A stretch of DNA of 64,000 bases from Candidatus Methanoliparum thermophilum (GCA_004212075.1 RXIF01000002.1:124001-188000); one strand, 5' to 3'. Counted from the stretch's first letter, positions 1-19,466 are shown. Notes: generated by a model from the letters alone, not told the origin. Numbers and translations are program-made.

Positions 1-1340
1 TTTACGCCGTCAAGTTTCTGATCAATCTGCTCTGCTTTTTGTTTTAATATTTGTGCTAAATCGTTTACATCTTTGTTTCTTATTTCTTTAACAAGAGTGT
101 ACATTGTATATCGTATCGAGCTTTGGGAATAGTTTTTATAATTTACCGACCGAAATACTGTGAACATCTCAAGATACATAGCTACCAAAGAGAATTTTTT
201 CTTTATTGTTTCTGGATTATCCTGTAGTGTTATCGGCGCCATAAGAAGAGGGTAAAATATAGATGGTGCAAGCCTTCTTTCATTGATATAAAAAATATTT
301 TCCAGTTCTTTATTGAATTCGTTTGCTGCTTTGTTAATTTCCACATAAACATCTACAAAAAAACTCATATTTTTCTCAACAAAATCACGGAAACTTTGCT
401 CGTTTATTAACCCTACTTTATTTTTATTATCTCTAACCCACTGATGAAACCTAGTTCCAATCTTTTCAAAATCTTCGTTAGCTGCACCTTCTCTTCCAGG
501 TCTAATAGTTTCAGCATATTTTGCCCTTAGCCATGCTTTACAAAATTCTAAATCCTCGTCTTTTGATATAGCTCTAAGTTCACCTATTTTCTTTTTCCAA
601 AGCACATTCAACTTTTGCTTTTGTGTATTATCCGACAAATTTGAAAGAAGGTAACCTTTAAGCATTTCCGTAGGGGTTAGATTTAGCCCTCTATCATTCA
701 TTGTCTCAAAGATGATATAGGCATCGTCATCAGAACAAGTTGTAACTTCAACAAAAACTACATTATCAACAAGCCAGTCAATAAAGTAAGGCAATGCTTT
801 ACCTTTTAAATCTTCAGGGAATAATTCTTGAATATCATTGTATCTCTCCATAAGATTTTGCACAGATTCATCTTTTTCTATAGCCTTATAATTCTCTCCG
901 TTTCCATTATATAAAGCCTCAAGACATTCTTTTCTCTCTGGAACTTGGAGGTTAAATGATTTTTCACCATATCTTTCAGAAAAAATAAGATCTGGTATAG
1001 TTGTTACTTTATCTTGATCTTGCCTGATCTTTTGTAAGTTATTCAGGTAAATAAGTAATAAAGTTATTGAAGTTAATCTTTGCTGACCATCAATTATTGA
1101 GTTTCCATCTTCCTTTGAACTTATAATAATGGGACCTAGATAATATTGTGGATAGTTTTGCACCTTTTTTCTGTCATCTGTTTCTTTATGATCTGCAAAA
1201 AATTTTGTTGTAAGATCACTTATTAATTGTTCTATTTGTTTCCTTTCCCACTTATATTCCCTCTGGAAAAAATCAATAAAATACTTTTTTTTGTCTAAAA
1301 CCTCTCTTACGCTCTTAAGTTTAGCATCAATATTGTTCAT
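1..1340 (-). CDS. DUF262 (GmrSD-like) protein, cut by window edge
   Basis: The reverse strand is open from an ATG at 1338-1340 to the window edge, about 446 codons, so the C-terminus is missing. The N-terminus carries the DUF262 signature: FQREYKW near residues 25-31 and the ParB-like DGQQRLTS at 84-91. IFETMNDRGLNLTPTEMLK follows near residue 220. DUF262 proteins include the nucleotide-dependent GmrS half of type IV restriction enzymes and are common in defence islands. The start overlaps the hsdS stop by four bases, so it is the third gene of an hsdM-hsdS operon. It probably acts in defence with or beside the type I system; its exact role is inferred. Confidence 0.85.
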   Translation of the reverse strand, partial: MNNIDAKLKSVREVLDKKKYFIDFFQREYKWERKQIEQLISDLTTKFFADHKETDDRKKVQNYPQYYLGPIIISSKEDGNSIIDGQQRLTSITLLLIYLNNLQKIRQDQDKVTTIPDLIFSERYGEKSFNLQVPERKECLEALYNGNGENYKAIEKDESVQNLMERYNDIQELFPEDLKGKALPYFIDWLVDNVVFVEVTTCSDDDAYIIFETMNDRGLNLTPTEMLKGYLLSNLSDNTQKQKLNVLWKKKIGELRAISKDEDLEFCKAWLRAKYAETIRPGREGAANEDFEKIGTRFHQWVRDNKNKVGLINEQSFRDFVEKNMSFFVDVYVEINKAANEFNKELENIFYINERRLAPSIFYPLLMAPITLQDNPETIKKKFSLVAMYLEMFTVFRSVNYKNYSQSSIRYTMYTLVKEIRNKDVNDLAQILKQKAEQIDQKLDGV

Positions 1341-2620
1341 GTTGGCACCTCTTTTTCCTTAGTTTTGTCATTTTCTTCTATCAAATGGTTAACCCTGATT
1401 TTGCCAGTAAGCAAGTCCTCCATCAAGCCCTGCTTTATTCTTTCAAGTTTCTCTTTATATCTTTCTTCTTTTTCTATTATTTCGTCTATCTGGGAGAGGA
1501 TTAAAGCGATGCGGTGTTGTTCGGGGAGGGGAGGAAGAGGAAATTCATGAGTTTTTAAGATATTCCAACTTGTTCTCGGCATTTTAGTTCCGAAAATTTT
1601 TGACTCTGCTAATTTTAAAAATTGTTCGGATTGAATCACTAAATACAAAAAATCCCTGATTATTTCAGGGCTATTAGGCATTATTACATATATTTCTGTT
1701 GAGCACCAGCCATCAAACCTGGCATACCAATATTTTCTTAAGTTAGGTCTCAACTTGCCAAATAAAATATCTCCCTTCTTGAACACACTTGCATTTCCTT
1801 TTATTTTTTCAGATGGAGTAAATCCACTGACATATCCACCTTCTTTTTCTATATTTTCAAGTCCGATATATTTCTGGTTGTTTGGTGGGAACATTTTTTT
1901 ATTTCTCAATTTGACAACATCTCCCAACTTCACCACCCCCCACTCCTCTGGTATCTTGCCAAGTGGTGAGTCCTTGAACCTGTGCGTCTCCTCACTCCTT
2001 AACTGCCCGTTTTCATCTATGCCTTTTGTGAGCAGATCCTGCATTAAGCCCTGTTTTATGTGCTTGTATTTCTCTATGATTCTGTCAGTCTTTTCCATGG
2101 CATTGTCAACGGTTTCAAGGATTTCTGCGATTTTGCGCTGCTCGGAGAAGGGAGGAATTAAAATAGCCAACTTGACCAAAGCTGGTGGTCTAATTTCGCT
2201 AAAACTTGTTCCTTGGGAAAATCTAATAAGTAGATTCTTATTATGTAGAAGGAAGTACCTAAAAAAGGTGTTGAAAACCTTATGCTCGTCCAATACAATA
2301 CCTGTAATGCCTTGTTTAGTTGCGGCAGGAATCCTTGTAATTCCTACTTCACCTATTGTTGCTCCTGTAGAGACTATCACTGAACCTCGAGGCCATAGTT
2401 TTGCACTAGATTTTTTCAAACCCTTCCTACTGAGTGTTTCCTTGGTTTTTTCGATGTAGGGTCTAATATCATCAATAACGACCCAAGGAATACCTCCATT
2501 GAAATTGTCAGCATCATTTCTTGAAGGAGTGCCACCATCACCTAATTCTTTTATAACCTCCCCCAACCTTGCCTTTTTCCATCCCTTTGGAAGTTCTCCC
2601 ACTTCTTTAGCTTCAGACAT
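1337..2620 (-). CDS. hsdS: Type I restriction-modification specificity subunit HsdS
   Basis: A 427-residue DNA-recognition subunit. It has the standard two-half layout: a target recognition domain (about residues 10-165), a conserved helical spacer with KHIKQGLMQDLL (about 190-200), a second recognition domain (about 225-375) and a second spacer with RIKQGLMEDLL. PLPPLPEQHRIA and the related LIPPFSEQRKIA mark the ends of the two recognition domains. The two halves differ, so the target is expected to be asymmetric and bipartite. The ATG lies inside the end of hsdM (8-base overlap), indicating translational coupling. Length is normal and no frameshift is seen. Confidence 0.95.
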   Translation of the reverse strand: MSEAKEVGELPKGWKKARLGEVIKELGDGGTPSRNDADNFNGGIPWVVIDDIRPYIEKTKETLSRKGLKKSSAKLWPRGSVIVSTGATIGEVGITRIPAATKQGITGIVLDEHKVFNTFFRYFLLHNKNLLIRFSQGTSFSEIRPPALVKLAILIPPFSEQRKIAEILETVDNAMEKTDRIIEKYKHIKQGLMQDLLTKGIDENGQLRSEETHRFKDSPLGKIPEEWGVVKLGDVVKLRNKKMFPPNNQKYIGLENIEKEGGYVSGFTPSEKIKGNASVFKKGDILFGKLRPNLRKYWYARFDGWCSTEIYVIMPNSPEIIRDFLYLVIQSEQFLKLAESKIFGTKMPRTSWNILKTHEFPLPPLPEQHRIALILSQIDEIIEKEERYKEKLERIKQGLMEDLLTGKIRVNHLIEENDKTKEKEVPT

Positions 2621-5054
2621 AGTAATATCCCAATTCTTTCAAAAATCCATCCAACTTTTTGACTTCCTCATCCCTTTCCTGCGTCAATTCCTCTAAGGAA
2701 ACTTTATACTTATCCCACAGGTTTTCAAAAATCTTTATGAGATCTTTTTTCTCTGCATTCAGATATTTATTGAGTTGTTCATCAATGATTCCATAAAATT
2801 TCTCAAGAAGCAACTCCTTTACTTCTTCCTCACTTAGCGATTTTCTTTTATACTGTATCTTTCTCTCAAGCTCATTTTTTATATCTCTCAATGCCTTCTT
2901 GAACTTCTTCAATTCTTTTTCTTTCTTTTCAATCCTTGAGACTAAATTCTCCCATTTTGCGGCTTCTTGTAATGCTGACTCACTCCAGCTTGCTCTTAAA
3001 TCCTTAACAATCTCTTTTAAGTGCTTCCTTACCTTATTTGCCGTTTTATTACCCTGTTCCTCCTCATCCCAGTCTTCAACCTCTTCTAAAAACTCGTTTA
3101 GTTCTCCTTCAATCTCTGCTACTTTGCTTTCCAGCTTTTCAATTTCTTCCAATTCTGCCCTGAAAAACCTCTCTTTTATCCTCTCATCCTCAATCAGGTT
3201 TTTACTCCAGCCGGTAGAAACTATGGTTTTAAAATCATATCTAAGCTCTTCCCACCAGTTCACAAATATGCCAGAGATCTTAAACTCATCAAGCAAGTTA
3301 AGAGGTAGAAATCTCTCCTTTAACTGTTTCATAGCCCTGTTTCTGAAGTCCCAGAGATCGTTGTTGCCGTGAAATCCCTCAATCTCAGGCTTTACCTCAT
3401 CCCACCATTTCCTTAGTTTTTCTCTGTGCTTTGAGATTGTGGCTTTTACATTATTATCGCTCTCAATAATTTCTCCTAGCATGCTTCTTTCCTCAATATT
3501 ATCATTAAACTCCAAATAATTCTTATCTTTTTCTTTCAGGAGATGGTTAAGTGAAAGATTAAACCTCTGGAATTGTTCTTTATAAAGGTCAACCTCCCTC
3601 TTTGGAACACCACCGACAAGATGAGCATGAACATCCTCAATCTCAGGGTCTGGAGAGTTGTCCACATACCTCCTGATGTTCAGATTAAAATCATTATCTT
3701 CAATTTCCCTAATATCTACGAGCCTCGAGTATTTTGGTATCTCCTTTTTCTCGGTAAATACCGTTACAATCTTCTCGATGTCTTCTGGTCTTAGATAATT
3801 CTGATTCCGTCCCTCTCCATATTCCCTGTCTGCATTGATGAATAAAATCTTGTCTTTCATATGTTCTGGCTTATTTTTGTTGATAACAACCACGCAGGCT
3901 GGAATACTTACGTTGTAAAAGAGTTTGGAGGGTAAACCAATAATAGCCTCAATTAAATCATCTCTAACTATCCCTTCTCTAATAATCTTTTCCTGCCCAC
4001 CTCTGAACAATATACCATGAGGCATAACAGTTGCCATAATGCCATCATTTTTTAAGCTGGCAATCATATGTTGCAAAAACATTAAATCCGCTTTTTTACC
4101 TGTTTCGGGAGTAAAACCGTATTTAAATCTCTCAGGAAATTGCATGTTTGTACGGGTATAATTCTGAGAAAATGGAGGATTGGCTAGAACCCTGTCAAAA
4201 TGCTTTATGTATCCATTTTCTACAAACATAGGGGTTGTTAAAGTATCTTCATTTTCTATATGTGCATCTGGAATACCGTGGAGGATCATATTCATCTTAC
4301 ATATTGACCATGTCAATCCGTTAAGCTCCTGCCCATAAAGAGCTATATTTCTGGTATTCTGCCCCTGCTCTTCAATATAATGTCTTGATTCTATAAGGAA
4401 CCCTCCCGAGCCAACTGTAGGATCATAGATTGTCATGCCTTCTTGTGGTTTAACAAGTCTGACCATTAGTTTCTTTACATGCGTAGGAGTGTAAAATTCA
4501 CCGCCCTTTTTACCTGCCGAGTCAGCAAATTCTTTAAGAAGATACTCGTAGGCAGCGCCAAGCAAATCTGGAAACTCAAAGTCATCGTTTGTGAGTCTGT
4601 ATTTATTAAAGTGGTGAATCAGGTCAATGAGTTGCTGGTCTTTAAGACGAGTTTTTCCTTTTATGGCATTAAAATCAATATGCTTTAAAACACCATCAAG
4701 CTCTGAACTCTTTTCCTCTACTGCAGCTAATGCTTTATTTAAGTGATTGCCCACGTTTTCCTTCAGGTTAAGAATATTTTGCCATCTTGCTCTCTCTGGA
4801 ACAAAGAAGGTATCTCCATATAAATTAGGATCTTCCAAAAGCTCATTAATCTGTTTATCAGAAAACCCCTGAGCTTTTAATCCATCTCTTAATTCTGCTC
4901 TTTTTGCTTCAAAAACATCCGAAGCACGCTTTAAAAAGAGCATACCAAAAATATATTCCTTATACTCAGAGGCATCCATCTTCCCCCTGAGAATATCTGC
5001 AGCTTTAAAAAGATGAGTCTCAAGCTGTCTTAGGGTTATCTTACCATTATTCAT
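2613..5054 (-). CDS. hsdM: Type I restriction-modification DNA methyltransferase HsdM
   Basis: N6-adenine methyltransferase subunit. Starting at 5054 it has 813 residues. An HsdM N-terminal helical domain comes first, then the methyltransferase core with AdoMet motif DPTVGSGGFLIES and catalytic ANPPFSQNY. About 300 Lys/Glu-rich residues follow, probably coiled coil, so it is longer than a typical 500-residue HsdM. I chose ATG 5052-5054 because AAGGATGAT lies just upstream and the family N-terminus begins there. The longer frame from 5123 would start inside the attC-like site. No hsdR is in the window; it may lie beyond position 1 or be absent. Confidence 0.93.
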   Translation of the reverse strand: MNNGKITLRQLETHLFKAADILRGKMDASEYKEYIFGMLFLKRASDVFEAKRAELRDGLKAQGFSDKQINELLEDPNLYGDTFFVPERARWQNILNLKENVGNHLNKALAAVEEKSSELDGVLKHIDFNAIKGKTRLKDQQLIDLIHHFNKYRLTNDDFEFPDLLGAAYEYLLKEFADSAGKKGGEFYTPTHVKKLMVRLVKPQEGMTIYDPTVGSGGFLIESRHYIEEQGQNTRNIALYGQELNGLTWSICKMNMILHGIPDAHIENEDTLTTPMFVENGYIKHFDRVLANPPFSQNYTRTNMQFPERFKYGFTPETGKKADLMFLQHMIASLKNDGIMATVMPHGILFRGGQEKIIREGIVRDDLIEAIIGLPSKLFYNVSIPACVVVINKNKPEHMKDKILFINADREYGEGRNQNYLRPEDIEKIVTVFTEKKEIPKYSRLVDIREIEDNDFNLNIRRYVDNSPDPEIEDVHAHLVGGVPKREVDLYKEQFQRFNLSLNHLLKEKDKNYLEFNDNIEERSMLGEIIESDNNVKATISKHREKLRKWWDEVKPEIEGFHGNNDLWDFRNRAMKQLKERFLPLNLLDEFKISGIFVNWWEELRYDFKTIVSTGWSKNLIEDERIKERFFRAELEEIEKLESKVAEIEGELNEFLEEVEDWDEEEQGNKTANKVRKHLKEIVKDLRASWSESALQEAAKWENLVSRIEKKEKELKKFKKALRDIKNELERKIQYKRKSLSEEEVKELLLEKFYGIIDEQLNKYLNAEKKDLIKIFENLWDKYKVSLEELTQERDEEVKKLDGFLKELGYYYV

Positions 5055-5120
5055 AGCATCATCCTTCAATAATATTGTATTCCTCATTTTTAAGTATTTC
5101 CAAGACATGTTTAGGTATTT

Positions 5121-5209
5121 CATATAACGTCCGGAGCTTAAAAGAAGTTTTTGCGAAGCAAAAATTTGAGTGAGTGCCGTAAAACACGAACCTTTTATGC
5201 TGTGTTATA
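5121..5209 (-). repeat. attC-like recombination site A
   Basis: On the minus strand this 89-base segment starts with TATAAC and ends with GTTATATG. Inside are nearly complementary arms (AGCATAAAAG and CTTTTAAGCT, one mismatch), followed by a variable centre. The ends match R''- and R'-like boxes of integron attC sites. It shares TATAAC, ATAAAAGG, TCAAATT, AACTTCTTTTA and ACGTTATATGAAAT with the sites at 6668 and 8585 but points the opposite way. A gene fragment ends 20 bases before it and hsdM begins just after it, as expected for a cassette junction. No integrase is visible. Confidence 0.65.
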
Positions 5210-5228
5210 CGCCGTCCGCTTATTTCAC

Positions 5229-5354
5229 TCATTTGTAGGTTGTTTTTACCCATTCCCGTAACCACCATCCATTCCCCTCCATACCTTTAATACATTTCAT
5301 TTCTTCTAAGTCTTTCAATATATCCCCAGCTCTTTTTCGTTCATCATTGAGCGG
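5229..5354 (-). pseudogene. C-terminal remnant of an unidentified protein
   Basis: A 41-residue reverse-strand reading (LNDERKRAGDILKDLEEMK... ending VKTTYK) looks coding, with a TGA at 5229-5231. It is cut upstream by an in-frame TAA at 5355-5357. The composition resembles the end of a winged-helix or small helical protein, but I do not recognise the family. It ends directly before attC-like site A, the position of a cassette gene relative to its own recombination site. Confidence 0.4.
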
Positions 5355-5466
5355 TTATATATAATTTTTATGATGTTGAAAGCAGTAAAAAAGATAAAAA
5401 ATACATTATAGAGGAAATAATAGAACCGCATTCTATTTGGTTGTGTTCTTGTATGAGATTTTTAGT

Positions 5467-5494
5467 GTTTAGAATACCTATAAGGGATTGAAAT
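5467..5494 (+). repeat. Solitary CRISPR-repeat-like sequence
   Basis: The 28 bases GTTTAGAATACC-TATAAGGGATTGAAAT have the form of a type I CRISPR repeat: GTTT start, ATTGAAAT end and a TATAAGGG middle. There is no second copy at a spacer-sized distance, so this is not an array. The last half recurs at 43454-43470 and 43572-43588 in reverse orientation. Confidence 0.4.
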
Positions 5495-5668
5495 CCTTCT
5501 GGTGTTGATGGCAGAACCATTAGAGGTATTACTTCTCATATGATTATATTTGATGAGGCAGCATTTATGCCAGACATTATATTTGATGTCGTTCTTCCAT
5601 CTATAATTGGTTCTACTAACCACAAAATAATCTTAAACAAAGTCCTGAAACAGACATTTCAAGATTAG
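5492..5668 (+). pseudogene. Fragment of a phage terminase large-subunit-like ATPase
   Basis: About 58 codons read GVDGRTIRGITSHMIIFDEAAFMPDI and onward. The run of hydrophobic residues ending in DEAAFMP is the Walker B region of a terminase large subunit, where the acidic pair coordinates Mg-ATP. An in-frame TGA precedes it and TAG ends it at 5666-5668. Walker A and the nuclease domain are missing. It is a decayed viral or proviral remnant beginning right after the CRISPR-like repeat. Confidence 0.55.
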
Positions 5669-5829
5669 ATTCATTATGCTTAATTTTTGGGATAGGATTA
5701 GTTTTATTCGACGTAAATGATCCAAACAATCCTAAATTTGAAATTAGAGTTAGACCAATTAAGCATGATCCTGATATTTTTTACACAAACAAATACCTAA
5801 AGTTGATTGATGATGAAATCTTTGGATGA
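5665..5829 (+). pseudogene. C-terminal gene remnant of unknown family
   Basis: In a frame shifted from the terminase-like fragment, about 54 codons read as plausible protein with FDVNDPNNPKFEIRVRPIKH in the middle, ending at TGA 5827-5829. No start or N-terminal domain is present. It may be the end of the same decayed gene after a frameshift or of another one; I cannot name the family. Confidence 0.35.
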
Positions 5830-5835
5830 TGTAAT

Positions 5836-6605
5836 ATGATAGTCAGACCAATCCTAGAATCAATAGTTGAAGATATTAAGTTCGAAGATTTACCTGCTAA
5901 CTGGAATTCGTTTGATTTGGATAATTTTTCAAAGAGTAAGAGACTTTGGGATTATCAAAAAGATGCTTTGAAAAACGCTATAAAGGTTTTGTGGAAGTAT
6001 TTTGAGGGCTTTGTTGATTACCAAGAGGGCGAAAAATTTAAGTAGCGAGCAATATTTTGAAAGCGGGCATAAGGAAATCAAAATCAAGTATATTGCCAAT
6101 CATTATTACATTCCACTTATCTTATCCCCTGATGAAAAGGTAGGTTATATCAAGCACATAATTAAAACTCAAAGCGAGGAAAGATTCATCAATGATTTGG
6201 AAGATCATTTAACCAAGGCTGATAACAAGTTCAAGGAATTTGATTGGTGGCTGTTCAGCAAATTGGATGAAAGTTTAGATGAAGTTTATATCCCCTACTA
6301 TAATCCCAATGCGAACAAATTTAGCCATTTCTATCCAGATTTTATTTTTTGGTTAAAGAGGGGGGAATAATTACTTTATTGTTTTTGTTGATCCAAAGGG
6401 AACTGAGCATACAAGCGCATACCGAAAAATTGATGGATATGCACAATTATTTGAAGAAAACGGAAAGGAAAAGGTTTTTAATTACAATGGATTTAAAGTC
6501 AGAATAAAATTGCTACTAAGACCAGAAGATGTTTCAAAAACTCTTAATGGGTATAGACAATATTGGTTTGATAATATTGAAAAGATGTTAGAAATGATAG
6601 TATAA
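5836..6605 (+). pseudogene. Broken type III-like restriction helicase/nuclease
   Basis: Three consecutive frames together resemble a helicase-endonuclease (Res-type) protein. The first (5836-6045) has LWDYQKDALKNAIKVLW, the Q-motif region at the start of such helicases. The second (from about 6002) has YYNPNANKFSHFYPDFIFWLK, and the third YFIVFVDPKGTEH, together forming a PD-(D/E)XK-like nuclease end that stops at 6603-6605. The helicase core is missing, so there is a large internal deletion plus at least two frameshifts. The gene is dead. It ends just before attC-like site B, in the place of a cassette gene. Confidence 0.65.
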
Positions 6606-6667
6606 TTAACAAAAGATTTTATGGCGTCGGGCATCTGCGATTGCTCGCAACCTTGCCATTCGGATTA

Positions 6668-6746
6668 TATAACAGCGGATAAAAGGGAAATCAAAGATTT
6701 CCTCAAATTGCCTCGTTAACTTCTTTTATCCGCAGAACGTTATATG
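6668..6746 (+). repeat. attC-like recombination site B
   Basis: Begins TATAAC and ends GTTATATG. The inner arms GCGGATAAAAG and CTTTTATCCGC are perfectly complementary, and the centre folds on GAAATC-AAA-GATTTC. The spacer next to the left box is one base and that next to the right box five (AGAAC), so the palindrome is asymmetric. Upstream GGTTGC/GCAACC-type sequence (about 6638-6665) is shared with site C. It lies between the broken restriction gene and the HARE-HTH gene block. Confidence 0.7.
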
Positions 6747-6774
6747 AAATCGTGGGCGAATAGCATTTTGATTA

Positions 6775-6993
6775 TCATTCCTTTGACAATAATAAATCCT
6801 TTCCATGTTTTTCATAACAAGATGAGCAATATATCTTGGCATGCAAGCTATGAAGGAATTTATCTTCAATATGTTCTCGATAGTAGGTCTCACCAGGCAA
6901 TATTTCCTTACCACAGTTGTAGCAAATATGCTGGGACCTAGCTTTGTTTTCTTTAAGATTTTTAGATGATTGTACTTCCCCATTGCTCAACAA
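6775..6993 (-). CDS. Small C2C2 zinc-binding protein
   Basis: A 72-residue protein with two CxxC pairs (CYNC near residue 24 and CSSC near residue 56), as in treble-clef or zinc-ribbon folds, and many charged residues. The start is a TTG at 6991-6993 (an alternative TTG is next to it), overlapping the last 7 bases of the HARE-HTH gene, with an AAGAAGG-like ribosome site inside that gene. Coupling suggests the two proteins act together, but the function is unknown. A plus-strand frame across the same bases looks like a shadow. Confidence 0.6.
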   Translation of the reverse strand: MLSNGEVQSSKNLKENKARSQHICYNCGKEILPGETYYREHIEDKFLHSLHAKIYCSSCYEKHGKDLLLSKE

Positions 6994-8474
6994 CCTTCTT
7001 TCCCTATATTCTTTTTAATCCATTCATCTATTTTTTCTATTGGAACATTTAGTTTATATTCGATGGGTCTCTTTGAACCAGTCCACTTAATTAATCCTTC
7101 TATTTCTAATATCCCTAAAGTCATTCTGATTTTGTATTCTTCTGGTTTTCCCTTAAAAGTCCTGTCAAGTGATAAGTTTTGCCCTTCAAGCATAGAGAAA
7201 ATTAGATCGGTATTGATCAGATTTTGACTTTTGAACCCTTCAATTATCTTTTCTAAAATAGTTTGAAAGTGATTTATAGGGCAATAGTGTTCATAAGGAT
7301 TATCTTTTCTTGCTATGGCAACAATGGAATGCCCTTTTATATACCATTTGAAATATTTTGAACCAAGTTCCTTTTCTGGTGTGGGCTTCTCTTCAATCTC
7401 TATAGTGGGGGTAGGTGGCACCTCTTCTTTTTCTCCAAGTCTAACAAGAAGATTAGAAATTTGTTGGAAGATGTTTGCTATATCTTTTGTTTTGATTGTT
7501 AGGATATACCTATTTTCAGAAATCTCTTTAACTCCATTTATAAACGGGAGCTTTAATAGGCTAATGATATATTCAATATCCTCAGGCTCTATTTCAAGTT
7601 CTTCTATCTTTTCTCTTCCTGCTAAACTATCAAAAGTAAAATAGCCCAATCTATCTTGTAAAGATTGCATTTCTTCAATAATTACTCCGAATTGTTCTAA
7701 TAAATTTCTTCTGGAAAGATTTTGAGTTAGTAAATCCTCCAGTTGGGAGCTTTTGTCACCTTTACCAGCAAACAAATCTTTTAATTCTGTTAAAGTAAAA
7801 GGAAATTTAGAATGTGCCTCTACAAGTTTTATTAAATCTTCTGTTTTTAGCAGGGAAACATCATACTCGTTTGCTCGTTCCTCCAAATTTCCCCCAGAAA
7901 AACTCGGACCTACTACAACTACAAAATCAGCTTTGTTTTTCTTTTTATGGTCTCTTAAAGAAATCCAATCTATATATCGATCTATAATTTTACCTGATTT
8001 ACTTGTTTTACCATCAACATTAACTTTGAATGACTCTTGGCCAATATTTGCTGTAAGAAGAACATCTGTATCTCCTTTACCTCCAATAAGTTCAGCTTCA
8101 AACCCCAAAAAATTAAAAGCGTCTTTTATTGCCTTTTCAAAATCTGTTGGAGAGTCACTCTTAGATTGTCTTTCTTTTAGGTATTTAATAATCAAATTTG
8201 CTCCCATAGAAATTTTTATCGTTTCGTCTTTTTCTTCATGAGTTTCTTCACCCCATTCTCTCAATCCAAACAATCCTCGTTTCACTTTCACAAATAAGGA
8301 TTTTTCTCCTTTTTGCTTTATATCGGTATAAATTACTGCACCCATTGTTGCATCTGGAGTCTTGCCGTCACTTGTAATTAACCTTTCCTTTAATGCAATT
8401 TTGGTAATCTCTCTTGCTGAAAGCGGTCTTTTCTTTTTTCCTAACACATGATATGCAGCTTCTTTGAATTTCAT
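6987..8474 (-). CDS. HARE-HTH / PD-(D/E)XK restriction endonuclease-like protein
   Basis: A 495-residue protein. Residues about 1-75 form a HARE-HTH winged helix (FKEAAYHVLGKKKRPLSARE, then ITKIALKERLI), a domain linked to restriction enzymes and chromatin factors and predicted to read modified DNA. Residues about 115-215 look like a nuclease core, with GGKGDTDVLL and VNVDGKTSKSG supplying the acidic and lysine residues of PD-(D/E)XK. A helical linker and a C-terminal domain of about 130 residues (SKYFKWYIKGHSIVAIAR...) follow. It lies between attC-like sites B and C, pointing against them. It is probably a modification-sensing restriction protein; the target is unknown. Confidence 0.72.
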   Translation of the reverse strand: MKFKEAAYHVLGKKKRPLSAREITKIALKERLITSDGKTPDATMGAVIYTDIKQKGEKSLFVKVKRGLFGLREWGEETHEEKDETIKISMGANLIIKYLKERQSKSDSPTDFEKAIKDAFNFLGFEAELIGGKGDTDVLLTANIGQESFKVNVDGKTSKSGKIIDRYIDWISLRDHKKKNKADFVVVVGPSFSGGNLEERANEYDVSLLKTEDLIKLVEAHSKFPFTLTELKDLFAGKGDKSSQLEDLLTQNLSRRNLLEQFGVIIEEMQSLQDRLGYFTFDSLAGREKIEELEIEPEDIEYIISLLKLPFINGVKEISENRYILTIKTKDIANIFQQISNLLVRLGEKEEVPPTPTIEIEEKPTPEKELGSKYFKWYIKGHSIVAIARKDNPYEHYCPINHFQTILEKIIEGFKSQNLINTDLIFSMLEGQNLSLDRTFKGKPEEYKIRMTLGILEIEGLIKWTGSKRPIEYKLNVPIEKIDEWIKKNIGKEGC

Positions 8475-8584
8475 ACTATATACCTCTATCTCTTAAGGGT
8501 TAATATTATTTGTGTCCCCTATGCGTTTAATAAGCCGTTCGCCCACGATTCTACGGTTGCTCCGCAACCTTGCCCTTCGGGACA

Positions 8585-8654
8585 TATAACAGCGGATAAA
8601 AGGCTTCGCCAAAATTGTCTTCGCCAACTTCTTTTATGCTAAGGACGTTATATG
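8585..8654 (+). repeat. attC-like recombination site C
   Basis: A 70-base site that begins TATAAC and ends GTTATATG, with arms GCGGATAAAAGG and CTTCTTTTATGC and inner CTTCGCC-type repeats. The left arm matches site B exactly; the right arm (ATGCTAAGGAC) is different, as expected of related but distinct cassette sites. It is preceded by GGTTGCTCCGCAACCTTGCC. A further dyad, AATTCGCTCGGCGAATT, follows at 8656-8672. Confidence 0.7.
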
Positions 8655-8784
8655 AAATTCGCTCGGCGAATTAACAAAGAATTTAAAAACTAACGAGATA
8701 ATACTATAATGAGGAGCTTGAAAATGGCAAAGAAAATATATATTAAACAGTTTTTGCATTTTATCCAATTAGAAAGTGATCAAG

Positions 8785-9336
8785 ATGAAGATTACAAAAC
8801 GGGAGATCGTCTTTGAAGGAAAACATTTAAGGCTTTTGAAGAAATATTTTAAACATTTGGGAAAAGAATATGTATGGGAGACAGTGGAGAGAAAAAATAT
8901 TTACAATAGCGGTGCAGTAGTAATCGTTGCTTTAACTAAAGAAAGAGAGCTAATTTTAGAAAAAAATTGGAGAGCTCCTTTAGAAAATTTTGTTATCCAA
9001 TTTCCTGCAGGTCTTACTGATATCGAAGGTGAAAGTGAGGAAGATACTGCCCGTAGAGAGCTTTTAGAGGAGACAGGCTATCGAGCAGAGGAACTTATCA
9101 ATATTATCTCGACACCACTATCTCCAGCTCTAACTCCTACCAGAGCCACCTATTTTTTTGCTCCAAGAGTAGAGTTTGTAGGAATAAGTAAGAAGGATAC
9201 TGCTGAGGTGATCGAGGTTTTGAAAGTCTCAGTTAATAAGATAGATGATTTTCTGATAAATCTCCCAAAAAATACTGAACTCGATCTTAGGGTTCCGGGT
9301 ATAATCTGGATTTTGGAGAAGAAAAAATTAATTTAG
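8785..9336 (+). CDS. Nudix hydrolase, ADP-ribose pyrophosphatase-like
   Basis: A protein of about 183 residues. A Nudix box is clear: AGLTDIEGESEEDTARREL followed by LEETGY. The REL.EETGY part with the metal-binding glutamates is intact, but there is one residue more than usual between the first glycine and the first glutamate. The layout resembles ADP-ribose or sugar-nucleotide pyrophosphatases. I chose ATG 8785 because GTGATC, matching the 16S 3' end, lies just before it; the same GTGATCAAG-ATG context precedes rpl2. A GTG at 8776 would add three residues. It converges on the MEMO gene. Confidence 0.85.
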   Translation: MKITKREIVFEGKHLRLLKKYFKHLGKEYVWETVERKNIYNSGAVVIVALTKERELILEKNWRAPLENFVIQFPAGLTDIEGESEEDTARRELLEETGYRAEELINIISTPLSPALTPTRATYFFAPRVEFVGISKKDTAEVIEVLKVSVNKIDDFLINLPKNTELDLRVPGIIWILEKKKLI

Positions 9337-9374
9337 AGATGATATGCCGCCTTTACCCTACCTTTGCTAAAGTA

Positions 9375-10202
9375 TCATATAACTATACTAGCATAACCAA
9401 CGACCTGCAATCTGTCGCCTGAAACATCTCCACTGGTAGAATATTTTAGAAATCGTCCTACTTTTGCACCAAATCTTTTAGATATATCCATTACAGTAGA
9501 AATACAACCGTATCCACATGCAGAGACGTTTTCTTCATATAAAACCTTATATAATCCAGGTACATCAAGATTTTCTATTTTATCTATCAATTTTTTATCT
9601 TTTTGATAAGCCACTTGTTCAGGCACATAATGAGAGAAATCGCTCGATGCAATAAACGTAATATTTTTGTTTAGTCCAGAAATAGCGTTTAAAATACTAT
9701 CCGCTACCTCTAACACTGTTTCTTGGTCTTGCATTCCTAATATTATCGGCACTATCTTAAAATTTCCGAATATATACTGTAAAAAAGGTAACTGTACCTC
9801 GATAGAATGCTCATAAATATGAGCAACCTCTGATCTATCAATAATAAGCGGTGGTATTTTCTTTATTATATCTAAATCTGGCTCTACTACTCCAAACGGT
9901 GTCCTCCATTTATCAGAGCTCACAGAGACCGGTGAACCCAACCCAGTATGGTTAGGACCAAACAAGATAAAAGTATCGGTATCTTTATTTAACCGCTCTA
10001 GCGCAGAATAAGTATACGCAGCCGTCTGGCCTGAATATATATATCCGGCATGAGGAGCAACACCACCATAAAGCTTATCTACCCCGTCTAATTTGGCATC
10101 AATAATTTTAGAATCTACGTTTGATAAAAAAGTAGATATCATATCTGCCAACTCATCCTTATTAGCAGGATAGAATTGATCCGCTACTGCTGGAGCTCTC
10201 AT
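9375..10202 (-). CDS. MEMO family protein
   Basis: A 275-residue MEMO1/AmmeMemoRadiSam family protein, related in fold to class III extradiol dioxygenases. Seen: ADQFYPA near the N-terminus, GGVAPHAGYIYSGQ (about residues 46-59), FGPNHTGLG, the EHSIEVQLPFLQ helix and SDFSHYVP, which carry the histidines lining the family's metal pocket. The ATG overlaps the rps2 stop by four bases, placing it at the 3' end of the S13-to-S2 group. A MEMO gene next to rps2 is a common archaeal arrangement. The biochemical role in archaea is unsettled. Confidence 0.9.
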   Translation of the reverse strand: MRAPAVADQFYPANKDELADMISTFLSNVDSKIIDAKLDGVDKLYGGVAPHAGYIYSGQTAAYTYSALERLNKDTDTFILFGPNHTGLGSPVSVSSDKWRTPFGVVEPDLDIIKKIPPLIIDRSEVAHIYEHSIEVQLPFLQYIFGNFKIVPIILGMQDQETVLEVADSILNAISGLNKNITFIASSDFSHYVPEQVAYQKDKKLIDKIENLDVPGLYKVLYEENVSACGYGCISTVMDISKRFGAKVGRFLKYSTSGDVSGDRLQVVGYASIVI

Positions 10203-10816
10203 ATCACAGCATCTTCGTATTCGAAGTCGGAAAGTTTGTAATCAAATTTGTCTATGCCTCTCTCCTTCAAGAGATTTTTGGATAGTAGATAATACACCAA
10301 TGCAAGAGCAGATTTTCCTTTGTTATTAGTAGGAATTACCAAATCGATATTTGATAAGTCATTATTTGTGTCACATAATGCAATAATAGGAATACCTATC
10401 TTCTTCGCTTCTTTAACCGCATTCTGGTCGGAAAAAGGATCGGTTACTATTAAAATATCCGGTTCGATATAATCAGACATAGAGAAGTTGGTAAGCGTTC
10501 CTGGAACAAACCGTCCTGTAATAGCTTTTGCATTTGTAGCTCTTGCAAACATCGCAACAGGTCTTTGTCCATATACTCTCATAGATACCGCCAATATTTT
10601 TGACGGGTCGTATCGTGCCAGTAACTTTGCAGCATCCTTTATCTTTTTATCGGTATAATGGACATCGATCAGGTATAAACCATCCGTTCTGACCTTATAA
10701 ACATATTTAACCATCTGTTTGGTCTTTTGCTGCGTACCAATATTCACAGCCGAGTTAAAATATTCCTCTATAGGAACGAGAAGCTCCTCTTCCACCATAC
10801 CATTACTTGAACTCAT
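10199..10816 (-). CDS. rps2: 30S ribosomal protein S2
   Basis: A 205-residue archaeal S2. Seen: an N-terminal IGTQQKTKQMVKYVYKVRTD, the RYDPSKILAVS strand, AITGRFVPGTLTN, and PDILIVTDPFSDQNAVKEA with IPIIALCDTNN, all standard S2 motifs. It sits downstream of tRNA-Pro and overlaps the MEMO start by four bases. Confidence 0.97.
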   Translation of the reverse strand: MSSSNGMVEEELLVPIEEYFNSAVNIGTQQKTKQMVKYVYKVRTDGLYLIDVHYTDKKIKDAAKLLARYDPSKILAVSMRVYGQRPVAMFARATNAKAITGRFVPGTLTNFSMSDYIEPDILIVTDPFSDQNAVKEAKKIGIPIIALCDTNNDLSNIDLVIPTNNKGKSALALVYYLLSKNLLKERGIDKFDYKLSDFEYEDAVI

Positions 10817-10843
10817 TTTTATCTCACCCTTGTTTATCTTACA

Positions 10844-10918
10844 TGGGGCCGCTGAGATTTGAACTCAGGTCACGGCGTCCCGAACGCCGAAGGATCGACC
10901 AGGCTACCCTACGACCCC
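10844..10918 (-). tRNA. tRNA-Pro (CGG)
   Basis: The reverse strand folds as a cloverleaf. The acceptor GGGGTCG pairs with CGGCCCC, with A as the discriminator base. The anticodon stem CGGCG/CGCCG encloses TTCGGGA, giving anticodon CGG. The T arm contains GTTCAAATC. No CCA is encoded. It lies between rpoN and rps2. Confidence 0.95.
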
Positions 10919-10964
10919 AATCATTATACATTATACACGGAATTTTATCATTCTGTTTTATCTG

Positions 10965-11150
10965 TCAATATTTAGATAAAAGATCTATCGTCTCTACATG
11001 AGAAAGAAAAATCCTTCTACAACAATATCTCTTTATGCCAAGATCGTCCAAAACATCTTTAGGTTTCTCACCTTTAGCTACTCTATCTTTATATTCTTCC
11101 CAATGCCGAGAGATTAAGCTTCCACACGTAAAACATCTGACTGGAAACAT
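10965..11150 (-). CDS. rpoN: RNA polymerase subunit N
   Basis: A 61-residue Rpb10 homologue. MFPVRCFTCG with CFTC near the start and GIKRYCCRRIFLSHV with the CC pair give the four zinc ligands of this family. In archaea rpoN usually follows rps9, as here. The usual rpoK is not found next to it. Confidence 0.98.
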   Translation of the reverse strand: MFPVRCFTCGSLISRHWEEYKDRVAKGEKPKDVLDDLGIKRYCCRRIFLSHVETIDLLSKY

Positions 11151-11161
11151 GATTCAACCAT

Positions 11162-11563
11162 TTATCTATACGACTTTTGCCTCTTGGCTCTTGCACCACG
11201 TCCACCAAACTTCTTCGTCTCCTTTTGCCTAGAGTCGTTAACCAAGAGAGAACGATCATACTTGTAGAGATACTCTTTAAGAGTATTATCTTCGGTCCAT
11301 TCTACTAATCCTCTTGCTATCGCTGTTCTAACTGCATCCGCCTGTCCTATAATTCCCCCACCAGAGACAACTACATCGATATCTACTCCATCTATAAAGT
11401 TTTTTGCAACTAATAGCGGCTCCAATATTTTATCTCTCACAATGACCGGCTCTATAATCTCTATCGGTTTTTTATTTACTCTAATTCTGCCTGTTCCTGC
11501 TCGGATAGTCGCTTTAGCTATCGCAGTTTTTCTTTTACCGCTAGTATTGACAATTTTATCCAT
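11162..11563 (-). CDS. rps9: 30S ribosomal protein S9
   Basis: A 133-residue protein with [14 protein letters not shown] at the start, [20 protein letters not shown] in the middle, and the basic C-terminal tail [12 protein letters not shown] that reaches the P-site tRNA. It follows rpl13 after 9 bases, the conserved L13-S9 pair. Confidence 0.98.
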
Positions 11564-11572
11564 TATAACACC

Positions 11573-11986
11573 TCAAAATCTTGATCCTAATCTTCTTGAT
11601 ATATCCTCTAAATGAACATATTTGATCGTACTAAGGTTTGACAAAGATATAGCAGGCATAGTCTCATAATCATTTATACCGTTAGGTACACCAACATATA
11701 CCTTTAAACGTCTATATGCCTCTTTACCTCGTGCTTTTTTGAACGGTAACATGCCTCTTATAGTCCTTCTCAATATCTTATCAGGTCTTTTTGGAAAATA
11801 AGGCCCTTTTTCTGGACTTCCGCGAGTTTGTTTAGTCTTATACAACGAGGTTAAAAATCTCTTAGATCCGGTAATAACACATTTTTCACTATTAACAATG
11901 ATTATTTCCTCTCCATTCAATAACTTTTTTGCCACCTCGCTTGCCAATCTACCCATTATTAAATTAGATGCATCTATCACAGTCAT
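11573..11986 (-). CDS. rpl13: 50S ribosomal protein L13
   Basis: A 137-residue archaeal L13. Seen: VIDASNLIMGRLASEVAKKL and GPYFPKRPDKILRRTIRGML with the basic loop of the family. It lies between rpl18e and rps9 with short gaps. Confidence 0.98.
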   Translation of the reverse strand: MTVIDASNLIMGRLASEVAKKLLNGEEIIIVNSEKCVITGSKRFLTSLYKTKQTRGSPEKGPYFPKRPDKILRRTIRGMLPFKKARGKEAYRRLKVYVGVPNGINDYETMPAISLSNLSTIKYVHLEDISRRLGSRF

Positions 11987-11995
11987 TTATATACC

Positions 11996-12358
11996 TCATT
12001 GTATTATAACAACATTTGATCCTTTTGGACGTTCTTTAACAAGTTCATCTATAGTTAAGCATCTACCACCGGAATCTATAATCTTTTTGTATGCTGTCTT
12101 ACTAAAATTTATAGATGATACAGTTACAGGATGATCAATAGTTCCAGAACCAAGCACTTTACCTGGAACAAGGACTATTTTATCCTTATCAGCATATCTG
12201 TTTATCTTACCGATATTTACAGCTATCATTGATCTTGTTGGACTGTTTAATCTTTGTGCGACATCTTTCCAAATCTTTGCATTTTCTTCTCTCGATTTGG
12301 TTAACAACTTGTTGATCTGATCAATGATCAAAGGGTTGCTTTTTTTTCTAATTTTCAT
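11996..12358 (-). CDS. rpl18e: 50S ribosomal protein L18e
   Basis: An archaeal/eukaryotic L18e with KSNPLIIDQINKLL, PTRSMIAVNIGKINRYA, LVPGKVLGSG and FSKTAYKKIIDSGG. I prefer ATG 12358 (about 120 residues) over the upstream GTG at 12370, because AGGTGA including that GTG forms a good ribosome site eight bases before the ATG. It lies downstream of tRNA-Leu. Confidence 0.97.
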   Translation of the reverse strand: MKIRKKSNPLIIDQINKLLTKSREENAKIWKDVAQRLNSPTRSMIAVNIGKINRYADKDKIVLVPGKVLGSGTIDHPVTVSSINFSKTAYKKIIDSGGRCLTIDELVKERPKGSNVVIIQ

Positions 12359-12422
12359 AATCTCTTTCACCTACTATCTATTAACTAAATATTATTTTCT
12401 GCAAAATTATAACACGGATAAA

Positions 12423-12507
12423 TGCGGGGGAGGGGATTTGAACCCCCGAATTCCTCTGAAACAGGATCTTAAGTCCTGCGCCTTTGACCAATCTCGGCAA
12501 CCCCCGC
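12423..12507 (-). tRNA. tRNA-Leu (TAA)
   Basis: The reverse strand shows a GCGGGGG acceptor paired with CCCCCGC, a D arm, the anticodon stem CAGGA/TCCTG around CTTAAGA (anticodon TAA), a long variable arm typical of leucine tRNA, and a T arm with GTTCAAATC. No CCA is encoded. The first 39 bases overlap the 3' end of rpoD. Confidence 0.95.
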
Positions 12508-13275
12508 TTTAAGGTTTATCAGTTTATTCTCGATCACATCTACCGCAGTATTTACAATATCCTTAACGTTAATGCTTCCATCCGACTCTATATTAAATAT
12601 AAATTGGTATTCGTCCAAACTTACTCGTATCGCATCTATCGAACAGGTACGTTCACATAACCTACATAGATTACAATCTAGTATATTTTTTACTCTCAAT
12701 TCTTTGTCTATATATAATAAACCTTTAGGGCACTCTTTTATACAATCTCCACAAAGATCACAATTTATGATATCAATCTTTGCCACGTTTCTATAAGCAC
12801 AGATCGTAGTAGCCTGCCATTTAGCATGGTTTTTTCCGATACCTAATTTAGCAATAGCCTCACAGATTACTCTTTGTCCCTCATAAAGCTTAACAATAGG
12901 AATATCCTGATATGCAGGATTGACCGATGAATCGGTTGAGACTAAATCAGACGAATAAACCATTTTCGGACCTTCTGCACTCAAAGACAGGATCGTCTGA
13001 CACGAGCTACAACCTTCTCCGTTGCACTCACACTCATTAGGCATCTTAAAAAATTCCAAATCATCCGTCTTTAAGGGTATTAAACCGATTCTTGATGCCA
13101 ACATCTCGTTGTATAAGGATGAAGAATTGTCATAAATTCTTATAAAATCAACGGCCAATTTTGGAATTTCAGACATGGCAACCCTACGAATAGCGTTTAT
13201 AAACGCTGTCGAAACACCTTTTATCAAGAATTTACCGTTTGTATCTATATAATCCAATATCTCTACATGGATCAT
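12469..13275 (-). CDS. rpoD: RNA polymerase subunit D
   Basis: The 268-residue archaeal alpha-like subunit that nucleates polymerase assembly. Two ferredoxin-type 4Fe-4S motifs lie in the inserted domain: [12 protein letters not shown] (about residue 175) and [11 protein letters not shown] (about 200). Both keep all four cysteines, whereas some archaea lose one or both. The stop at 12469-12471 lies inside the tRNA-Leu gene, so the last residues ([13 protein letters not shown]) are translated from tRNA sequence. Its start overlaps the rps11 stop. Confidence 0.96.
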
Positions 13276-13661
13276 ATTCTTTTTCCTCTTCTGCCTCCTT
13301 TAGCTTTACATCCATCATGTGGGATCGGTGTTACATCCTCTATCCTACCTATCTTTAATCCGGATCTTGCAAGTGCTCTTATTGCAGACTGAGCACCAGC
13401 ACCAGGACTTTTAGATTTATTGCCGCCAGGCGCTCTAACTTCTATATCTAAACCAACAATACCTTTCTCTTTTACTATTTCAGCCGCCTTTAACGCTAAC
13501 TGCATTGCAGCATAAGGAGATCCTTCATTCCTGCTTGCTTTTACTACCATACCACCAGATACTCGTGCAAGTGTCTCTGCTCCAGTTATATCCGTAATAG
13601 TTACGATTGTATTATTGAGTGATGCATATATATGAGCTATACCCCATTTCTCTTTAGGCAT
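13272..13661 (-). CDS. rps11: 30S ribosomal protein S11
   Basis: A 129-residue protein with [20 protein letters not shown], the [14 protein letters not shown] helix and a C-terminal [19 protein letters not shown], the normal S11 end. It lies two bases after rps4 and overlaps rpoD by four bases; S13-S4-S11-RpoD is the conserved archaeal order. Confidence 0.98.
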
Positions 13662-13663
13662 TT

Positions 13664-14182
13664 TTATCCAACCTCTCTATGTTTAAAAGGAGAATTTTCT
13701 GCAAAAGAGATCGTATCTTCCTCATCTTTTCCTACCAAGTAACTAGGTGAGGATATCCTTCTACCATTAACCGCAATATGACCATGGACGATCAGCTGTC
13801 TTGCACCTTTTGGCGTAGATGCTAAACCTTTTGTATAGACAATAGTCTGAAGCCTTCTTTCAAGGAATTTTTTCACATCTAAAGAAAGGATCTCATCAAG
13901 AGGATCAATTCCTCCTTTTAAAATGCCATATCGTACCAATTTATTCACAATATCATTTTTTCTCTTATTTACAATCTCGTTCTCTGGATTTAACGCAAGT
14001 TCTGCCAAAATAGCCCGAGCCTCTCTTCGATACTTCCTTAATTCTTCTTCTACTCTCCATAGCTCTCTCTTGTTTCGCAAACCATACGTGCATACTATCT
14101 CTCTCTCAGATACAAGCCTGGATTTTTGCCACGGATGAATCGGTTTTTTATATAATTTTTTTAATCTTTTAGGCTCTCCCAT
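13664..14182 (-). CDS. rps4: 30S ribosomal protein S4
   Basis: A 172-residue archaeal S4. The N-terminus has [20 protein letters not shown]. The S4 RNA-binding domain has [20 protein letters not shown] followed by [20 protein letters not shown]. It lies between rps13 and rps11 with a 6-base and a 2-base gap. Confidence 0.98.
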
Positions 14183-14188
14183 CTAATA

Positions 14189-14641
14189 TCATACCCTCTT
14201 TTTCTTTACTCCAACTACGGTAGATGTACGTCCAGTAGATTTTGTTCTTTGACCTCTGACTTTATATCCTTTTTCATGACGAATTCCACGATAACTACGT
14301 ATCTTCCTTAATCTATTTATATCGTCTTTTATTGTAAGATCTAGATCAGTTCCAATAAGATGTAGATCGTCCCCGCTATAATAATCATTCCTCCTGTTTA
14401 AAAGCCATGAAGGGATATCCGGATCTTTGCCAAAATTTTCAACCTCTTTTTTCAACAGATCTATATCATTATCGGATAAACTGCCGAGCAGGGCATAAGG
14501 ATCAATATTAACCCTTGTTGCTATTATTTTTGCCATTTTTCTACCTATGCCTTTTATCCTAGATAACGCAATGAATACCTGTTTATTACCATTCAAATCG
14601 GTATTTGCTATCCTTACAAGATGTTTTATCTCATTCTCCAT
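14189..14641 (-). CDS. rps13: 30S ribosomal protein S13
   Basis: A 150-residue archaeal S13. HLVRIANTDLNGNKQVFIAL and RIKGIGRKMAKIIATRV give the H2TH helix; RKIRSYRGIRHEKGYKVRGQ followed by RTKSTGRT gives the basic C-terminus. It starts just after the tRNA-Ser gene with GGGAG upstream. The 14645-14725 spacer carries a doubled AT-rich unit (TTATATTACATTATTATT). Confidence 0.98.
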   Translation of the reverse strand: MENEIKHLVRIANTDLNGNKQVFIALSRIKGIGRKMAKIIATRVNIDPYALLGSLSDNDIDLLKKEVENFGKDPDIPSWLLNRRNDYYSGDDLHLIGTDLDLTIKDDINRLRKIRSYRGIRHEKGYKVRGQRTKSTGRTSTVVGVKKKRV

Positions 14642-14727
14642 TAATCTCCCTCAAACCTATCTTATGATTTTAATTTTTATATTAATATTACATTATTATT
14701 TATATTACATTATTATTTATATTTAGA

Positions 14728-14811
14728 CGCCGGGGAAGGGATTCGAACCCTTGCGTCCCGAAAGAGACACAAGCTCTCCAGGCTTGCGCCTTACCACTCA
14801 GCCACCCCGGC
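14728..14811 (-). tRNA. tRNA-Ser (GGA)
   Basis: The reverse strand folds with a GCCGGGG/CCCCGGC acceptor, G discriminator, anticodon stem CAAGC/GCTTG around CTGGAGA (anticodon GGA), a long variable arm, and a T arm with GTTCGAATC. No CCA is encoded. Its first 21 bases overlap the end of cbf5. Confidence 0.95.
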
Positions 14812-15714
14812 TTTTTTCCAACATTTAGGATAAGTATCTGGTTGCATAATAACCCGCTTTGTATCCGCTATGATCCCTTTGGTATAAGAAACATCCCGTT
14901 TTATATCTCGCTTTGATATAGCAAGAGCAACCGCTTCTTCTTTTTTTGTATACAATACTATAAGATCTCCTGCTGAGATATCGTTAGTGATACCATCATC
15001 CACAATCCCTGGTGCGGCTAAGTCTGCTCCATGACAGATAGCATCAACTGTAGAATCTTTTATATAAATTTTTGGTATATGTTTGAGTGCATCTTCGATA
15101 GGTAATATCTTTTCTCTTAAATATTTTTCCTCATCACACTCCTTCCACAAAAAATACGAATCTACAAGATCATGCATCGTAACGCTATCAGATTCTACGA
15201 ACGGTTCTGACAAAGTTCTTCTTAATTCATACATACTTGCACCTACATTCAAGAATTTTCCTATATCATGACATAGTACTCGTATATAGACTCCAGATTC
15301 ACATTTAACTTTGAAAAGTACGTCTTTATCCTCTATTTCTAATAAAACCAGCTTATAAATTCGCCTCTTCCTAGTTATTCTTTTAACCGCAGATTTAAGT
15401 GGTGGTTTTTGGTATATTATACCTTCAAATCTGGAAAATGCTTTTAAAAGCTTTTTTTGAGATACCTTTTTGTGCAGTTTCATCAAACAGACATATTCTT
15501 TATTGGATGACAACAAGAAAGGAGTTATCTTCGTTGCATCCTCCAAGAGTATAGGTAAGACCCCTGTAGCCTGTGGATCAAGGGTACCACCATGCCCTAC
15601 TTTGTTTAAATTAAAAATTTTTCGTATCCATGCACTCACTTCATGACTGGTAGGTCCAGGTGGCTTATCAAGGTTTATTACCCCCCTCTTTAAATACTCT
15701 TCGATCCTTACCAT
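14791..15714 (-). CDS. cbf5: tRNA/rRNA pseudouridine synthase Cbf5
   Basis: A 307-residue catalytic subunit of the H/ACA guide RNP, related to TruB. The substrate-binding N-terminus VINLDKPPGPTSHEVSAW is followed by GHGGTLDPQATGVLP with the catalytic aspartate (about residue 47). A C-terminal PUA domain starts near residue 220 (KDSTVDAICHGADLAAPGIV). The start overlaps the end of cmk by 47 bases, unusually long. The stop lies inside tRNA-Ser, so the last residues (AGVAEW) come from tRNA sequence. Confidence 0.95.
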   Translation of the reverse strand: MVRIEEYLKRGVINLDKPPGPTSHEVSAWIRKIFNLNKVGHGGTLDPQATGVLPILLEDATKITPFLLSSNKEYVCLMKLHKKVSQKKLLKAFSRFEGIIYQKPPLKSAVKRITRKRRIYKLVLLEIEDKDVLFKVKCESGVYIRVLCHDIGKFLNVGASMYELRRTLSEPFVESDSVTMHDLVDSYFLWKECDEEKYLREKILPIEDALKHIPKIYIKDSTVDAICHGADLAAPGIVDDGITNDISAGDLIVLYTKKEEAVALAISKRDIKRDVSYTKGIIADTKRVIMQPDTYPKCWKKAGVAEW

Positions 15715-16234: not shown

Positions 16235-16246
16235 TTTAAAAAAGAT

Positions 16247-16924: not shown

Positions 16925-16930
16925 TTTAAA

Positions 16931-18976: not shown

Positions 18977-18986
18977 AGATATAAAA

Positions 18987-19463: not shown

Positions 19464-19466
19464 TAT

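Follow-up and report, generated by a model that had tools for sequence, protein, structure and literature searches.

We analysed a 64,000-nucleotide stretch of the genome of the archaeon Candidatus Methanoliparum thermophilum (GCA_004212075.1 RXIF01000002.1:124001-188000; hereafter the window, with positions counted from its first letter), in which three related sites lie between positions 5121 and 8654. We conclude, with a probability of about 0.88, that these are recombination sites carried by the cassettes of an integron-like system whose integrase lineage and hairpin geometry are its own. More broadly, there is probably a second integron lineage, which runs on a Xer-type recombinase other than IntI and has an attI and a site geometry of its own. 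It would occur in archaea and bacteria, reach the size of superintegrons, have escaped notice because detection needs IntI and canonical attC, and account for at least some archaeal clusters that seem to lack an integrase. The sites were scored with R1, a covariance model built from 66 sites of other genomes, the three sites of the window being left out:

5121..5210, minus strand: recombination site 1 (R1 65.6 bits, E 3.7e-13; pattern match); R'' CGTATAAC, arms AGCATAAAAG and CTTTTAAGCT with one mismatch, inner hairpin, R' GTTATATG
6667..6746, plus strand: recombination site 2 (R1 73.2 bits, E 5.7e-15; bottom-strand fold z -5.2); R'' TATATAAC, perfect 11-bp arms GCGGATAAAAG and CTTTTATCCGC, spacers of 1 nt on the left and 5 nt on the right, R' GTTATATG
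8584..8654, plus strand: recombination site 3 (R1 53.4 bits, E 3.1e-10); R'' CATATAAC, imperfect arms, R' GTTATATG

An earlier note, made from the sequence alone, had described three attC-like sites here with a shared architecture, complementary inner arms and a common exit. The shared architecture is real, as the E-values attest, and the sites were placed correctly, except that the first one runs on to 5210. In a scan of the window, the pattern AACTTC-N13-ACGTTATAYGAAAT matched exactly at 5117-5149 (minus), 6718-6750 (plus) and 8626-8658 (plus) only; 0.04 matches are expected in shuffled sequence even with three mismatches. The common exit was confirmed: the exact 14-mer ACGTTATATGAAAT has three copies in the 1.26-Mb host genome, all at these sites, and AACTTC, 13 bases and ACGTTATATGAAAT make up the skeleton common to all three. 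Complementary arms are present as well, but perfect only in site 2, where the 11 bp carry no extrahelical base; those of sites 1 and 3 contain mismatches. Folding of the bottom strand, which the note had proposed as a check, gave z -5.2 against shuffles for site 2 and about -2.1 for sites 1 and 3. A search for the same sites elsewhere in the genome, likewise proposed, found nine outside the window cluster (12 R1 sites in total), five of which form one same-strand array (C2:190486-198220). Rfam returned no family for the sites, either for window positions 1-20000 at E up to 1 or for four site-bearing loci at gathering thresholds.

Spread and architecture of the site family

The site system is widespread in archaea and is also present in some cultured bacteria. 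We found 101 stretches matching the site skeleton with one base relaxed (scan of 84,980 genomes). Their archaeal hosts are ANME-1 (Methanophagales), Methanosarcinales, Methanocellales, Altiarchaeales and others, and the bacterial hosts include Halanaerobium isolates. Of 394 genomes from the host's phylum, 96 have sites (R1, E 1e-4 or better), as do 17 of 38 genomes of the H. salsuginis order, to which the Halanaerobium isolates belong. A pattern scan of viral contigs gave a single uninformative match, which lacks R''.

Most stretches share one architecture. In the 5' half, NNNTAAC is followed by one base, an arm, a variable part, CCCAAATT and a small hairpin; in the 3' half, AACTTC is followed by the complementary arm, about 5 bases and GTTANNYG. 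The arms covary, with double compensatory changes in 10 of 12 pairs, and the alignment-wide consensus fold recovers these inner arms only. The spacers flanking them measure 1 and 5 nt in 92 of 128 family sites, and conservation extends past R' (GTTAKRYGMMAT). Of the bases inside AAATT...AACTT, 2.9 of 4 are paired versus 1.26 in shuffles; hence the folded strand has an inner hairpin beside the right arm. A conserved second hairpin beside the left arm was also considered and dropped (1.76 observed versus 1.80 shuffled).

Cassette boundaries and contents

In integrons, the start of the next cassette completes the last box of a site, so that R'' complements the start of its own cassette and not the adjacent R'. 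Since the covariance model leaves R'' and the cassette-start ends unpaired, a comparison of own cassette with neighbour is a fair test of this rule. Among 56 informative neighbouring pairs, the own-cassette rule performed better in 46 and the neighbour in 4, with 6 ties, and perfect matches between R'' and its own start numbered 39 (shuffled mean 11, maximum 22). A separate set from the Halanaerobium order gave 26 for the own cassette versus 5 for the neighbour (31 decided pairs), which brings the combined count to 72 versus 9 informative pairs (P 1e-13). Examples of R'' and cassette start are GTTAGACG with CGTCTAAC (L093), GTTATCCG with CGGATAAC (L068) and GTTAAGTG with CACTTAAC (L025). Cassette boundaries in the wider family lie at G^TT with R'' complementary to its own start, as in integrons. 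The 88 cassettes have a median length of 1083 bp, and in 82 of the 83 that bear an open reading frame (ORF) the longest one is on the site strand, the sole exception being the 6740-8647 cassette of the window; tandem cassettes with gene and site on the same strand are likewise an integron feature. Homology between genomes respects the same boundaries: the homologous blocks of loci L111 and L237 start at the cassette junction within 1-3 bases, and so does the homology between L071 and the host array L189.

These observations bear on the proposal that the sites are a dispersed palindromic repeat (a miniature inverted-repeat transposable element, a repetitive extragenic palindrome or a terminator) that lies between genes by chance. 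The sites are indeed intergenic hairpins present in several copies per genome. Such a repeat should also be scattered without relation to cassette boundaries, an outcome that the earlier note had named as speaking against its own reading. Instead, the sites stand in tandem on one strand with roughly one gene in each interval, R'' follows its own cassette start rather than the adjoining R', between-genome homology begins at the G^TT junction, and sites are linked to an integrase (next section). We give the dispersed-repeat explanation next to no credence.

The cassettes of the host's C2 array encode an MjaI-type restriction-modification pair, transporter fragments, a GmrSD-type nuclease, and an ATPase with a DUF1016 protein. 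The claim that the cassettes are mostly about defence holds for the host genome but not for the family, since 70 cassette proteins across it have diverse functions. The host's methyltransferase and MjaI-type restriction cassette (L189 7577-9606) has a homologue in another archaeon (L071), with homology from the junction on. Cassettes of three locus pairs (L020/L247, L050/L160 and L111/L237) share 78-91% nucleotide identity between bacteria-labelled and archaea-labelled assemblies, the bacterial labels being Dehalococcoidia, Actinomycetota and Nealsonbacteria. This sharing could reflect cross-domain transfer or binning errors.

The linked Xer-type integrase and the attI-like region

In relatives, the sites are linked to a tyrosine recombinase of 350-370 aa, which has a SAM-like domain, a catalytic domain of the Xer type and, at the N-terminus, a short HARP-like segment. 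When 31 site-bearing genomes were searched for IntI, a single protein exceeded the curated cut-off; several recombinases there were matched in two pieces with a gap at the IntI-specific domain, and each of these is encoded on the same strand as a site array and upstream of it. The integrase aligns best to the IntI4 and XerA structures and has 16 residues where IntI4 (2A3V) has 56. Alignment with IntI1 and the Argoarchaeum IntI displays the same gap, with the catalytic R, K and H-x-x-R positions retained. The IntI-specific domain near patch III, a hallmark of classical integrons, is therefore lacking. The integrase scores 242.6 bits with NCBIfam NF040815 (XerA_Arch, cut-off 220) and 221.8 bits with TIGR02249 (integron integrase), below the cut-off of 265; it likewise stays below the cut-off of NF011946. 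In the tree, the integrase family stands apart from IntI (support 94/97 for the family and 100/99 for IntI). One joint clade of family and IntI is rejected (approximately unbiased test, p 0.0009), and a joint clade of family and Halanaerobium integrases is not (p 0.27). By sequence comparison, the family thus separates from IntI, as its sites do from class 1 attC.

Integrase and sites occur together. The close-family integrase is present in 26 of the 394 phylum genomes, and 25 of these 26 have sites, compared with 71 of 368 genomes without the integrase (P 7e-16; the cut between close family and distant relatives was drawn by us, and all 35 integrase matches give P 7e-11). At 18 integrase loci, 27 of 28 site matches are on the same strand as a close-family integrase and downstream of it, and two integrase relatives at 40-43% identity have zero sites downstream. 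Phage and plasmid records contain distant integrase relatives only (<60% identity), and viral contigs contain relatives of at most ~49% identity.

At 18 of 25 loci, a complement of the first site's R'' is found within 300 nt behind the integrase stop; shuffles give a mean of 3.8 and a maximum of 11. Directly before the G^TTA junction in this attI-like region there are often palindromes such as TATATCCGCAATACTGCGGATATA, with the general form TATAYCGNA..TNCGGATATA. As in integrons, an attI-like region thus lies beside the integrase at most of these loci, but not in the window's own genome. At the Caldisericum locus L120 (same contig as L054), the order is integrase, 93 bases, GTTAGGCG, a 214-aa ORF and a site with R'' CGCCTAAC. 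The H. saccharolyticum locus L173 has integrase, GTTATATG, an ORF and a site with R'' CATATAAC, and its second cassette fits too. In the single-contig genome G429, the integrase (1543166-1544158) is followed by plus-strand sites up to 1642115, an array of ~100 kb.

One could argue that the sites are ordinary divergent attC, served by a classical IntI in trans or by one since lost, with the Xer-type recombinase as a passenger. The sites do follow an attC-like R''/R' logic with a G^TT junction, an Argoarchaeum genome has IntI and family sites together, and archaeal attC and IntI exist, IntI1 having recombined diverse archaeal attCs in E. coli (PMC9668308). However, IntI exceeds the cut-off in just one of the 31 site-bearing genomes, the Argoarchaeum IntI contig has an attC-model match but no convincing R1-type site, array heads with a matching attI junction carry the Xer-type gene and not IntI, and family sites differ from attC in geometry and conserved motifs. 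We therefore consider this account unlikely. The Argoarchaeum contig (L170, G027:C41) carries the IntI, an opposite-strand attC-model match and an adjoining second Xer-like recombinase (3449-4360, 4945-5829 and 8837-8967), and the genome separately holds new-type sites and integrase remnants: two integron-like systems in one archaeon.

Mobilisation of the sites by another enzyme, for instance the host XerA or a hairpin-acting IS200/IS605-type transposase, would fit the sites in 71 of 368 genomes without close-family integrase and the Xer fragment present in the host. Yet complete array heads consistently start with one integrase family and a matching junction, and integrase-free clusters are common among classical integrons too (PMC9024848), which makes this account very improbable in our view.

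As seen in relatives, a full copy of the system comprises the integrase, the attI-like region behind it and, in the same direction of transcription, tandem cassettes of ~1 kb, each with one gene and one site. Its sites have R''/R' ends, 11-bp arms flanked by 1 and 5 unpaired nt, and an inner hairpin framed by AAATT...AACTT. In the proposed mechanism, the integrase would cut G^TT in the folded single strand, as in integrons, and the cassette would leave as a circle and reinsert at attI. The linked integrase presumably acts on the family sites, folding of one strand is presumably involved, and the cassettes may well be mobile today.

Several points weigh against this reading. Recombination itself is presumed from sequence, none having been observed. 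Many hosts are metagenome-assembled genomes, in which binning errors are possible, although single-contig genomes and Halanaerobium isolates also carry the system. For the window's own sites, the junction test carries no information. Integrase loci of the first batch were chosen for sites seen on the same contig, and those of the second mainly by integrase, with three stretches chosen partly for seen sites. Many archaeal integrase copies are frameshifted or truncated, 71 genomes have sites but no close-family integrase, and the host genome (86% complete) has no family integrase. The defective archaeal copies (frameshifted, truncated or internally deleted), among them those of L161, L163, L165, L166, L167, L241, L249 and L252, suggest that array assembly was often followed by integrase loss. 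A Halanaerobiales integrase gene (L351 of G437, 8416-10698, minus) is interrupted by ~1.26 kb of other DNA, which may be an insertion or an intron.

The window cluster and its place among integrons

The window cluster is a decayed remnant in a Methanollivieraceae-related archaeon: the family integrase is missing, the arms of sites 1 and 3 are imperfect, the 5211-6666 block is degraded, and two plus-strand sites face one minus-strand site. Around the sites lie the following features:

6740..8647, plus strand: cassette between sites 2 and 3; predicted G^TT junctions with G at 6739 and 8647
6748..6769, plus strand: left arm of a 22-nt inverted repeat (repeat pair I17, 82% complementary)
8529..8550, plus strand: right arm of the 22-nt inverted repeat (repeat pair I17)
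6987..8474, minus strand: 495-aa protein with HARE-HTH and Mrr-type nuclease domain (Pfam PF05066 E 1.5e-22, PF04471 E 2.9e-4)
6775..6993, minus strand: cysteine-rich 72-aa ORF, the cassette's second gene; weak zinc-finger match
5211..6666, plus strand: degraded cassette that ends with site 2; ORF remnants at 5836-6045 and 6002-6370 without a family match
1337..5123, minus strand: hsdM and hsdS of a type I restriction operon (Pfam, PADLOC, flanking DNA)

The earlier note had called the cluster integrase-less, which agrees with a host genome that has neither a family integrase nor an IntI over the cut-off. It had also seen gene-cassette-like blocks between the sites; this accords with the cassette logic of the family, but one block is degraded and the gene between sites 2 and 3 runs opposite to the sites. 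R'' of site 3 and the 6740 cassette start are exactly complementary, which is uninformative as both R' are identical. The backward genes of this cassette likely stem from recombination between the 22-nt arms, through which its interior would have been inverted later; with the interior re-inverted, the start codon comes 84 bases after the junction and is preceded by an AGAGGT stretch, an ordinary cassette layout. The type I operon begins right where site 1 ends with its R', and it runs past the window with hsdR; no second site was found at its far end. A gene for a DUF262/GmrSD-like protein (PADLOC HEC-06) is located between hsdS and hsdR (L012 11478-13340; G000:C3:123478-125340). Inside the degraded block, 5465-5494 (minus) resembles a single repeat of a clustered regularly interspaced short palindromic repeat (CRISPR) array (Rfam CRISPR-DR2, 28.3 bits against a gathering score of 37), which may be a relic or a chance match.

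IntI and attC define integrons, which are regarded as a single invention. Should another recombinase lineage run the same economy of cassettes on a different hairpin, the comparison would reveal the essential features of cassette capture. Many more mobile cassettes would then be known from anaerobic archaea and halophilic bacteria, and the puzzle of integrase-less archaeal clusters would become testable in cultured Halanaerobium strains. The bacterial-archaeal cassette homologies, unless due to binning errors, point to cross-domain exchange. Standard integron definitions seem to miss the system, and we found no description of it in the open-access literature (preprints not covered).

For comparison with canonical attC we used R2, a small and class 1-biased model built from 12 class 1 integron attC sites on plasmids. 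R2 found zero sites of the window's type in 12 sources rich in them, although it does find one attC on a contig with a genuine archaeal IntI; conversely, R1 found no class 1 attC site. The attC covariance-model check proposed in the earlier note thus gave no match with this class 1-built model, an outcome that the note had listed as refuting its reading. The attC-like reading of the note holds for the cassette-boundary logic, the G^TT junctions and the array layout, seen in the wider family, but not in the sense of ordinary attC, given the R2 result, the spacers and a non-IntI integrase. Family sites have spacers of 1/5 nt versus 5/5-6 nt in most class 1 attC sites measured, and thus depart from the attC layout, in which R''-L''-L'-R' boxes come with spacers of 5-6 nt at either side and extrahelical bases; as published, the definition of attC also names an unpaired central spacer besides the extrahelical bases (PMC2727003). 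Unlike class 1 attC, they have a conserved AAATT/AACTT inner hairpin and conservation beyond R'.

Among known arrangements, the window resembles clusters of attC sites lacking integron-integrases (CALINs) in that two or more sites lie within 4 kb of each other and the genome has no IntI; however, CALINs are called by the standard attC model, and the window sites are missed by the canonical, class 1-built R2. The archaeal integrons of Ghaly et al. 2022 are similarly cassette arrays mostly without IntI, but that set was defined by standard attC/IntI models, and its IntIs have the IntI-specific domain (PMC9668308). The same standard-model survey reported integrons in 75 of 6718 archaeal genomes (PMC9668308), compared with family sites in 96 of 394 genomes of one phylum, and the complete archaeal genomes examined elsewhere had no integrons (PMC9024848). 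NF040815, whose cut-off the family integrase exceeds, is a broad Xer-like model named 'site-specific tyrosine recombinase/integron integrase'. With the classical integron, the system shares tandem cassettes with one site each, R''/R' ends, an integrase and attI at one end, and a G^TT cleavage point predicted from the same cassette-circle logic. It differs in its integrase, which has no IntI-specific domain and whose transcription runs the same way as the cassettes.

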